From NCBI GenBank assembly GCA_947258435.1, contig CAMYID010000013.1, positions 1 to 64,000 on the forward strand: DNA of 64,000 nucleotides, read 5' to 3'. Shown piece after piece: positions 19,495 to 22,694 of the stretch (its first letter is position 1; every line of letters begins with the position of its first letter). Below the pieces are notes generated by a model. That model was not told where the DNA came from, did not search any database, and worked only from the letters and a program-made list of their open reading frames with translations. The position numbers and the translations under genes were made by a program. Source of the stretch: an uncultured Alphaproteobacteria bacterium (lineage in GTDB: Bacteria > Pseudomonadota > Alphaproteobacteria > UBA11222).

Positions 19495-21039
19495 CTACTG
19501 GACGTTGGATGAGCCGCTGGAATTCACGAACTGATTGACGGTCGTGATATTGGACAGGCCCTGCTGAAACTCCAGTCCGACCCAGGTATTGCCCGACTGC
19601 CCTGTAGGCGGCGTGATATTGGCCAGCACCGACCCGTTTACGACAGTGCTGCCCGCCGTGCCGCGCGAGATCTGCCCGTTCTGGATCAGCCGCATCCGCG
19701 CATTGGCATCATTTGACAGGCTTGTCGAGTTCGTTCCCTGATCGCCGAAGTTAAATACGGAAGCGCGATATACATCGCCGCTGTTAAGCTGCGAAATACC
19801 AATGACTTCCGATCCGCCAAATCCGGTTCTGTCCGCATCGAGCTGTGCGAAAGGTGAACCGTCGAAATTACCCCGATTTCCGAAAAAGACATGGAAGCGG
19901 CCATCATTGCCCGGATTGGGGCCGGTCAGATGCAGATCAAGATCCCGAATGGTGCTCCAGGTGACTTCCACCGCCAGCGGCAGATTAACGCCAAAGGGCA
20001 GGCTGCCAAAGCCCAGATCCTGCGCAATCTCAACCATATCTTCAACAGCGGCCTGCGGGTTTTCCGTGTCGACGCGGCCCGCCCCTTCTTCAGTGGCGCG
20101 GTTCGCCAGATCGCCAATATTCTGCACATTCCGCAGCGGTACATTCACATTGCGTGCCCGTACGCCGGTTTGCGCGGTGCGCTGCCCGGACAAATTGCCC
20201 GCGCGGGGCGGGGCGCCGCCGCCATCGGCCTGCTGTCCGCCTTGCGGTCCTGCATTATTTGCCTGATTGCCGCCCTGATTCTGGCCGCTGCCCTGATTTT
20301 GCCCGCCACCCTGGTTCTGATTGCCTGCCTGATTGCCGCCGCCATTCTGGCCACGTGCGACAGGGCCGGTAAGGCGTGCCTGCATTACCTGGGTAATTCG
20401 CGGCGGGGTGGGGATTGCCGGTCCGGGCGCCATGCCGGGGGTCACGAAGGTGCCAAAGCCCGCGCGTAATACATCGGTCGATCCGAAGTCATTCGAAACG
20501 GTCATGCCGCCGGCGCGCAGATTGCCGTCATTATTGGCTCCCGGGCCCAGCAGGCCGACAAAAGTCTGATCTTCCGTCGCTTCGGGATCATCAACTGCAA
20601 ACAGCGCCGTACCACGCACGCCGATTGTGGCAGTCCGCGTCTTGATCGTGACATTTGTCGGGTTGGCACTGGCGACTTTGCCCGATACATAGCGCAACAC
20701 GCCGCGCGTGAAGTTCGCGGTCAGCTTGCCTGTGTCGGTATTGGGGTCATAGATGAATTCGTCGATCACAAGCTGGCTGTTGGGGCCAACGGTGAATACC
20801 GTTTCGTCAAGCAGCAGAATCTGCATGCGCGACGCCTCGGCGCTTTCAAGCTTGTCGCCAAGCAGCATATCCATGCCCGAGACGACCGATTGCTTGCCTT
20901 CCCTGTCACCTTCGGAAACCGCGACCGAACCGCTGACGCCGGCGGCGATTCCCGCCTGCGTGGCCGCAAAAGCCATTGGTGCGGTAAGGATCGCAGACGA
21001 AATTGTCGCAAAACCTGCCAATTTCCCGAAAAACTGCAT
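19495..21039 (-). CDS. Secreted FecR-domain protein with Q/N/G-rich linker
   Basis: A 514-residue exported protein. Residues 1-26 are a signal peptide (cleavage near AFA-ATQ). A FecR domain covers about residues 50-175: GMDMLLGDKLESAEASRMQI, SQLVIDEFIYDP and KTRTATIGVRGTALFAVDDP are typical. Residues about 230-295 are a low-complexity run of repeated NQGG/QNQG units. The C-terminal domain (about 350-500) contains TWSTIRDLDLHLTGPNPG and GFGGSEVIGISQLNSGDVYR, like the DLDLHLTGP domains of surface proteins. This is not a sigma-regulator FecR, since there is no transmembrane anchor or FecA/FecI neighbour. It is divergent from the TPR/beta-barrel gene. The start at 21039 gives the signal peptide. 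Confidence 0.85.
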   Translation of the reverse strand: MQFFGKLAGFATISSAILTAPMAFAATQAGIAAGVSGSVAVSEGDREGKQSVVSGMDMLLGDKLESAEASRMQILLLDETVFTVGPNSQLVIDEFIYDPNTDTGKLTANFTRGVLRYVSGKVASANPTNVTIKTRTATIGVRGTALFAVDDPEATEDQTFVGLLGPGANNDGNLRAGGMTVSNDFGSTDVLRAGFGTFVTPGMAPGPAIPTPPRITQVMQARLTGPVARGQNGGGNQAGNQNQGGGQNQGSGQNQGGNQANNAGPQGGQQADGGGAPPRAGNLSGQRTAQTGVRARNVNVPLRNVQNIGDLANRATEEGAGRVDTENPQAAVEDMVEIAQDLGFGSLPFGVNLPLAVEVTWSTIRDLDLHLTGPNPGNDGRFHVFFGNRGNFDGSPFAQLDADRTGFGGSEVIGISQLNSGDVYRASVFNFGDQGTNSTSLSNDANARMRLIQNGQISRGTAGSTVVNGSVLANITPPTGQSGNTWVGLEFQQGLSNITTVNQFVNSSGSSNVQ

Positions 21040-21275
21040 GTTACTACCCCGATCAGGCCCCAAAACTCGCCATTTGTAGTCAGAATTCAGCTTGAGCGAC
21101 AAGTGCACAAAGGCAACATTTTTAATAAAAATTATTACGAACGCCGAAAGAGGGCTTGAAGCGCGCAGGCGACAATTGCATAGATTGACCCTGAATGACG
21201 CGTCTTGTGACGAATTTGAGTATGGCGGGGCTCGGGGTAGTGTCTGAAAATAGTAAGGTTTTGCAATCGCGGGCG

Positions 21276-22694
21276 ATGAATCTGGTAAGCCGGACGGCCC
21301 TGTCGGCTCTGTCTGTCTGTCTGTGTGTTACGCAGCTTCATGCGCAGCCGGTCGGTACCGAAGCGGCCGAGCGGCGGACGAAAGAGGCCACGCAGCAAGC
21401 CGGTAAAACCATTTCTGCAGAAGATGACCTGATGGCCGCGGCGGAAGCTTTGCCGCCGGTTACATTTTCACAGGTTCTCGAAGCACCCGACGATCCGGCG
21501 GTGAATTTGCGTTATGCACAGGATTTGATCCTTAAGGGCAATGTGCAGCTTGCCGCAGCGACGGTCGAGCGGATATTGATCAATTATCCCGACGCGGACA
21601 GTGTCCGGCTGCTTTATGCGATTTTGCTCTACCGTATGGATGTGCTTGATGATTCGGCGGCGCAGCTGGATATTCTGGAAGCGCGCAGCAGCGATGATGC
21701 AATTCTCAAGGAAGTTGCCCGTTACCGTAAGCTGATCGATGAACGGAACCGGCCGATCAAGCGGTCGGCGGCGATCAGTATCGGCATGCATTATGACAGG
21801 AACCGCAACGCCTTTCCCGATCAGGGAACGTTCCTGATCGGCGGTGCGCCTATTCAGGGCACGACGGGTGAGGTTGATGATTTCGGTCATGTTGTCATCG
21901 CGGCAACCGATATGCGGATGGATACCAACGGGCAGCAACTGCAGGAAATTTTCGCGGATGCGGCTTTTCTTTACGATAATCAGGTTGAGATTGATGAGCT
22001 TGATGTTCGCGCATTGCTGCTGAATGGCGGACTGACTTACAAATCCCGCTATGGTACGCTGGTGCCCGGGTTGCATGCGGCGCTGATTCAGCTGGATCGC
22101 GAGAAATACTCCCGCGATTACGCCGTTTCCCTGCGGGGTGAGCGGCCGGTTCTCAATTCCAAGGTCGCGGCCTATGCGGAAGTAAGAGCCGGGTGGCGGA
22201 AATTTAACAATACCCGCAATTTACCCTTCGCCCGCGAGCAAAGCGGTCAGTATCATGAATTGACGGTTGGCGGGCGCCGGGCGCTCGATAACCGCACGCT
22301 GATCCACGGCGCGGTGTCTTTGAACAGTGTCGATGCCATCAATTTCGAATCCTACGAAAGTTATGAACTGTCCCTCGACTTCACGCGTATTCTGCCTGCC
22401 GATACGTTCCTGACCGGTAGTGTAACGGTGGAGAAGCAGTTTTATCAGGGGCCCGATCCGTTCATTACACAGCGGACGCGCCATGATCTCGATACGACAT
22501 ATAATCTGACCTATGGCGTTCCGGTGGCCAATATCACCACCCATCTTGGTGAGAGCTTCGTAAGCCCGCCCTTCCTTGAGGATGTGGTTCTGACGGTCAG
22601 CGTGGAATATCAGAACTCGAACTCGAATATTCCGAATTTCGATTATGACAATGTCCGTGGTCAGTTCCTGCTCAACCGGCGGTGGGATTTTTAA
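21276..22694 (+). CDS. TPR-containing outer-membrane beta-barrel protein, Slam/DUF560-like
   Basis: A 472-residue predicted outer-membrane protein. Residues 1-24 look like a signal peptide (TALSALSVCLCVTQLHAQ). Residues about 70-150 carry TPR-like helices (NLRYAQDLILKGNVQLAAA, ADSVRLLYAILLYRM). The remainder alternates polar and hydrophobic residues with many aromatics (GGLTYKSRYGTLVPGLHAAL, TFLTGSVTVEKQFYQGPDPF) and ends in Trp-Asp-Phe, as barrels often do. This layout is that of surface lipoprotein assembly modifiers. An in-frame ATG at 21195 is an alternative start, but 21276 places the signal peptide at the N-terminus. It probably partners with the divergent FecR-domain exoprotein. Confidence 0.75.
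   Translation: MNLVSRTALSALSVCLCVTQLHAQPVGTEAAERRTKEATQQAGKTISAEDDLMAAAEALPPVTFSQVLEAPDDPAVNLRYAQDLILKGNVQLAAATVERILINYPDADSVRLLYAILLYRMDVLDDSAAQLDILEARSSDDAILKEVARYRKLIDERNRPIKRSAAISIGMHYDRNRNAFPDQGTFLIGGAPIQGTTGEVDDFGHVVIAATDMRMDTNGQQLQEIFADAAFLYDNQVEIDELDVRALLLNGGLTYKSRYGTLVPGLHAALIQLDREKYSRDYAVSLRGERPVLNSKVAAYAEVRAGWRKFNNTRNLPFAREQSGQYHELTVGGRRALDNRTLIHGAVSLNSVDAINFESYESYELSLDFTRILPADTFLTGSVTVEKQFYQGPDPFITQRTRHDLDTTYNLTYGVPVANITTHLGESFVSPPFLEDVVLTVSVEYQNSNSNIPNFDYDNVRGQFLLNRRWDF

Follow-up and report, generated by a model that had tools for sequence, protein, structure and literature searches.

A FecR-domain exported protein and a Slam-superfamily outer membrane barrel form a conserved gene pair: a candidate type XI-like export system

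Outer membrane proteins of the Slam family consist of TPRs and a 14-strand β-barrel (PMC5449769), a layout which recurs in the model of the barrel protein considered here. A single animal-associated cluster accounts for every verified cargo of type XI secretion (PMC12282271), and for TXISS-1B a soluble cargo without lipobox has been described (PMC8406197). FecR proteins have been encountered in the company of CHASE2 cyclases: clusters in Campylobacterota combine a CHASE2 cyclase and a phosphodiesterase with a FecR protein and a TPR protein, for which one signal pathway has been suggested (PMC9239204), and in Sinorhizobium meliloti the FecR gene smc02177 adjoins the CHASE2 cyclase gene cyaD1 (PMC5498481). 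The retention modules of adhesins, a third point of comparison, sit in the periplasm (PMC13090378). An earlier description of a FecR protein and a Slam-like barrel as an export pair was not found: FecR is absent from the main text of the type XI papers PMC5449769, PMC8406197 and PMC12282271, and none of the papers searched mentions FecR together with DUF560, or 'FecR domain-containing' proteins together with a 'surface lipoprotein assembly modifier', whereby priority is not certain because supplements and subscription journals lay outside the literature search.

In the window, the whole stretch of 64,000 nucleotides of an uncultured alphaproteobacterium that was analysed, a FecR-domain gene and a barrel gene are oriented divergently (Table 1). 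An earlier note on this DNA had read the minus-strand gene as coding for a signal peptide, a FecR domain, a Q/N/G-rich linker and a C-terminal DLDLHLTGP domain, and the plus-strand gene as coding for a signal peptide, TPR helices and a barrel ending in WDF. Both readings were borne out, each gene at its given place and strand, the barrel with the C-terminus RRWDF. The N-terminus of the FecR protein, MQFFGKLAGFATISSAILTAPMAFA, reads by eye as a signal peptide without lipobox, and the sole Pfam match of the protein is PF04773 (E 1.1e-8), which is also matched by 32/32 members of the partner alignment. That the putative cargo has no lipobox, as noted previously, holds for the window protein and likewise for its relatives, as 0 of 32 FecR partners carries one. 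The search results list three FecR matches genome-wide in the window's own genome. In the sister genus (L008:2257-3594, L174:4029-5432), the linker of the FecR protein is a long proline-threonine repeat and not Q/N/G-rich.

Table 1. Coordinates of the gene pair, of its predicted domains and of Hsp20-like genes.
Feature	Position	Strand	Remark
FecR-domain exported protein (putative cargo), 514 aa	19495..21039	-	ATG at 21039
Sec signal peptide, ~residues 1-25, without lipobox	20965..21039	-	read by eye
FecR domain fold, ~residues 28-220	20380..20958	-	Pfam match residues 62-152
Disordered Q/N/G-rich linker, ~residues 231-347	19999..20349	-	pLDDT <50
C-terminal beta domain DLDLHLTGP, ~residues 348-505	19525..19998	-	structure model and relatives
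Divergent intergenic region	21040..21194	.	contains AT-rich segment 21117-21139
Slam-superfamily outer membrane protein, up to 499 aa	21195..22694	+	start may be 21222 or 21277
TPR helices, ~residues 91-185	21465..21749	+	weak Pfam matches and AlphaFold model
14-strand beta barrel, ~residues 188-498, ending RRWDF	21756..22688	+	AlphaFold model
Hsp20-like gene loci	window:17107-17580; L082:1161-1721; L088:5236-5760		in the window ~3.6 kb from the barrel gene

The plus-strand protein possesses a signal peptide and, from the single sequence, gives weak TPR matches in Pfam. Its AlphaFold model, built on 42 sequences, predicts TPR helices and 14 long strands with a pLDDT of 85, so that the protein does model as a barrel. 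Its Slam/DUF560-like identity, initially a guess, gained full-length profile homology besides the 14-strand model: aligned with hhalign, the barrel profile of the window clade matches the canonical alphaproteobacterial Slam profile with E 4.3e-36 (probability 99.9) over 376 columns that take in the TPRs and the barrel through to its final strand. PF04575 SlipAM is matched by 16/42 and TPR_Slam by 22/42 members of the family; the best class-level relative reaches 40.3 bits with PF04575, which is, as for several other family members, over the curated cut-off, while the window barrel protein alone gave no PF04575 match in the Pfam scan. A Foldseek search with the barrel returned general outer membrane barrels and singled out no one family. 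In a maximum-likelihood tree, the window protein falls within a supported group of 45 rows that is separate from the Slam rows and in which 35 rows are FecR-linked. Rows with FecR linkage do not all fall into one clade, because a second FecR-linked group, of non-alphaproteobacterial rows, sits nearer to the Slams in the midpoint-rooted drawing. Judged by its profile homology, the plus-strand barrel protein belongs to the Slam/DUF560 superfamily.

The two genes had been proposed to share a divergent region of 236 bp with an AT-rich segment, which might co-regulate them. The divergent layout stands; the gap measures 155 bp if translation begins at the first in-frame ATG (21195), 182 bp from 21222, the start conserved in the nearest relative, and 237 bp only with the start at 21277. 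The AT-rich segment is present as well, but co-regulation drew no support from a scan, which returned no promoter-like match in the region, or from the alignment, in which the region is poorly kept outside the nearest relative.

The barrel/FecR pairing is conserved. Among five order-level relatives, the divergent pair is present in four (G001, G002, G004 and G005), with the FecR gene of G005 split over two contigs and the C-terminal part of that of G002 apparently on another contig; the fifth, G003, possesses neither the barrel nor a close FecR relative. Between the two genera of the window's family the flanking genes vary while the pair stays. A barrel profile search of 385 alphaproteobacterial genomes matched 65, and in the 40 loci examined from the top of the list a FecR-domain gene is nearby in 29, mostly as the next gene on the same strand with overlapping reading frames, compared with 0/20 canonical Slam loci of the same class, chosen by PF04575 score. 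A further sample across the phylum added a FecR gene in 10/20 loci, seven of these outside Alphaproteobacteria. In these samples, homologues of the two genes are mostly kept as neighbours; independent occurrence was the outcome that the earlier note had held would speak against a secretion pair. Such pairs are found in many Proteobacteria, and a CHASE2 cyclase gene frequently adjoins them.

Some neighbourhoods show further peculiarities. One barrel gene is accompanied by two FecR genes in L067, L072, L075 and L220, and a small Hsp20-like gene, with the start FSPLFRSTVGFDR, is found near the barrel gene in three loci of different families (Table 1). On contig 16 of the window's own genome (L169:5203-8507), a FecR gene lies two genes upstream of what reads by eye as a ShlB/FhaC-type two-partner-secretion transporter, because of which FecR genes may adjoin more than one kind of outer membrane translocator.

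The C-terminal domains of the FecR partners are of three kinds. For eight distant partners, the C-terminal profile retrieved from the PDB NHBA (2.8e-10), TbpB (3e-5) and then, weakly, fHbp and LbpB, thus essentially Slam/T11SS-type cargo barrels except for one designed TPR protein (0.006); as judged from these profiles, the eight end in a barrel typical of Slam/type XI cargo. The C-terminal domain shared by 19 nearer partners gave no significant link to the cargo barrel on its own in profile searches. A treatment of all C-terminal domains as one family was abandoned, as the match in the PDB obtained with the pooled profile A5 did not recur with the nearer 19 alone; since that match fails in the 19 and is strongest in the eight, the cargo-barrel claim is narrowed to the latter. 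A count of the motif DFGxRT among the 19 nearer partners was set aside because the reasoning was circular. The window lineage carries the DLDxHLTGP domain, which in the class sample is confined to its own family and a single further genome, where it is likewise fused to a FecR domain. This domain has no link to cargo barrels in hhalign, HMMER and PDB profile searches and no confident match in a structure search, and the window cargo does not end in a TbpB-like 8-strand barrel. The previous statement that the cargo lacks any known Slam-cargo barrel accordingly applies to the window protein and fails for the family, in view of the NHBA/TbpB-like ends of the eight distant partners.

The FecR domain itself resembles both anchoring and signalling modules. 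Its profile has a single sequence match in the PDB, 5ix9 (E 1.3e-5 over ~70 residues), to which the domain model also corresponds in a structure search (TM 0.75); the entry is titled as the cell-surface anchoring domain of an ice-binding RTX adhesin, which we take to be the retention region of that adhesin. Pfam scans gave no RTX repeats and type 1 secretion genes were not seen among the neighbours. The fold also matches the cell-surface-signalling domain of PupR (6ovk, E 2.5e-4). Since the one PDB sequence that the FecR profile matches comes from the anchoring domain of such an adhesin, the FecR domain may tether the cargo, and, speculatively, it could act as a non-lipid anchor in the periplasm.

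Taken together, the pair most likely represents a type XI-like (Slam-like) outer membrane export system with its dedicated cargo, a reading which we favour with some reserve, and the FecR protein is probably a new, non-lipidated class of cargo of such a pair. As suggested by the signal peptides, both proteins would be carried over the inner membrane by Sec, whereupon the plus-strand protein would, according to homology and model, form a 14-strand barrel within the outer membrane, its TPRs lying in the periplasm. The TPRs and barrel would then take over the periplasmic FecR protein and pass its C-terminal part to the surface, an export step that is inferred because of the Slam homology, the gene pairing and the cargo-type barrels in some partners. 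More speculatively, the disordered linker could reach across the pore, with the N-terminal FecR domain remaining behind in the periplasm as an anchor that needs no lipid, and a CHASE2 cyclase, where it adjoins, may read the periplasmic FecR domain. The whole chain, a lipid-free surface tethering in which the barrel exports the C-terminal part, FecR anchors it and CHASE2, where present, senses FecR and so couples surface display to cyclic-nucleotide signalling, is put forward as a doubtful extension. Since the defining cargo barrel is missing from the window cargo and translocation of this protein is a prediction, we do not count the pair among the proven type XI systems.

The frequent CHASE2 cyclases point equally to signalling. 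A CHASE2-cyclase gene adjoins 22/40 loci of the barrel family versus 0/20 Slam controls, both domains being confirmed in four examples; neither these neighbours nor the anchoring-domain resemblance had figured in the earlier note. A serious, though rather unlikely, rival is a trans-envelope signalling triad from which nothing is secreted, with the barrel as outer membrane sensor, the FecR protein as periplasmic relay and the CHASE2 adenylate/guanylate cyclase as inner membrane output, in analogy to FecA-FecR-FecI with a cyclase replacing the sigma factor. The PupR-like fold of the FecR domain (E ~2e-4), the CHASE2/FecR/TPR clusters of Campylobacterota (PMC9239204) and cyaD1-smc02177 of S. meliloti (PMC5498481) would fit such a triad, although smc02177 is dispensable for the perception of the plant signal (PMC5498481). 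The barrel family is, however, related to translocons and not to TonB-dependent receptors, and the cargo-type barrels that end some FecR partners are left unexplained. Moreover, no CHASE2 gene stands beside the pair in the stretches examined around the window pair and its family-level relatives; the window's family does have CHASE2 cyclases, the clear one of its own genome being encoded on contig 15. Export and signalling may also be combined. As for the cyclase genes themselves, after the one on contig 15 (L168:4315-8050) come two small proteins that look exported, one of them bearing Sel1-like repeats, and a similar gene follows the CHASE2 cyclase of G003 (L173). In one genus (L060, L061, L063, L065), the barrel adjoins a CHASE2 cyclase and the stretch examined contains no FecR gene.

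Improbable, in turn, is that the barrel exports something else, for example a polysaccharide as do BcsC, PgaA and PelB, with the FecR protein as an accessory in the periplasm or at the surface. The layout of TPRs plus barrel, a weak NCBIfam match to BcsC (E 0.018) and the presence of PelBC and BcsC among the structure matches are compatible with this, but the barrel model has 14 strands, it is with Slam that the profile shows homology over the full length, and in the loci read none of the genes beside the pair was recognised as a polysaccharide gene. That the two genes lie side by side with no connection in function, as the 11/40 family loci without nearby FecR gene (three of them cut by contig ends) might suggest, is most improbable given the prevalence of directly adjoining genes on one strand whose reading frames overlap, the conservation across many families and beyond the class, the co-absence in G003 and the 29/40 versus 0/20 loci (hypergeometric p ~2e-8, a guide only because loci from one genus are not independent); the recurrence of the divergent pair is more than chance.

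A FecR cargo class, if true and widespread, would extend the type XI system to free-living Proteobacteria, would provide a role for FecR-domain exported proteins now read as iron regulators and would connect surface export with CHASE2 cyclases in a way that can be tested.

Compared with known systems, the exported protein shares the fold of its FecR domain with the FecR/PupR anti-sigma regulators, but a Sec signal peptide replaces their cytoplasmic anti-sigma part and transmembrane helix, and a sigma-factor gene as in FecARI was not recognised nearby. With the retention modules of RTX/LapA-type adhesins (5ix9; PMC13090378) it may share an anchoring domain, to judge from the resemblance of its N-terminal FecR domain in sequence and fold, whereas RTX repeats and type 1 secretion genes were not seen and the channel is Slam-like. 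As in the Campylobacterota clusters (PMC9239204) and cyaD1-smc02177 (PMC5498481), FecR proteins of the family are linked to a CHASE2 adenylate cyclase, in Campylobacterota also to a TPR protein, but those clusters have not been linked to Slam or secretion and the window pair has no adjacent cyclase. From Slam/type XI systems (DUF560, PF04575; PMC5449769, PMC8406197, PMC12282271) the pair differs in that the barrel family forms a separate large branch of the tree, that the partner carries a FecR domain, with no lipobox found, and is often adjoined by a CHASE2 cyclase, and that the window cargo, which unlike Slam-dependent surface lipoproteins has no lipobox, ends in a domain other than the cargo barrel. 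With these same systems it shares the N-terminal TPRs, the predicted 14-strand barrel, the full-length profile homology, the adjacent cargo-like gene and, in part of the FecR partners, the cargo-type β-barrel.
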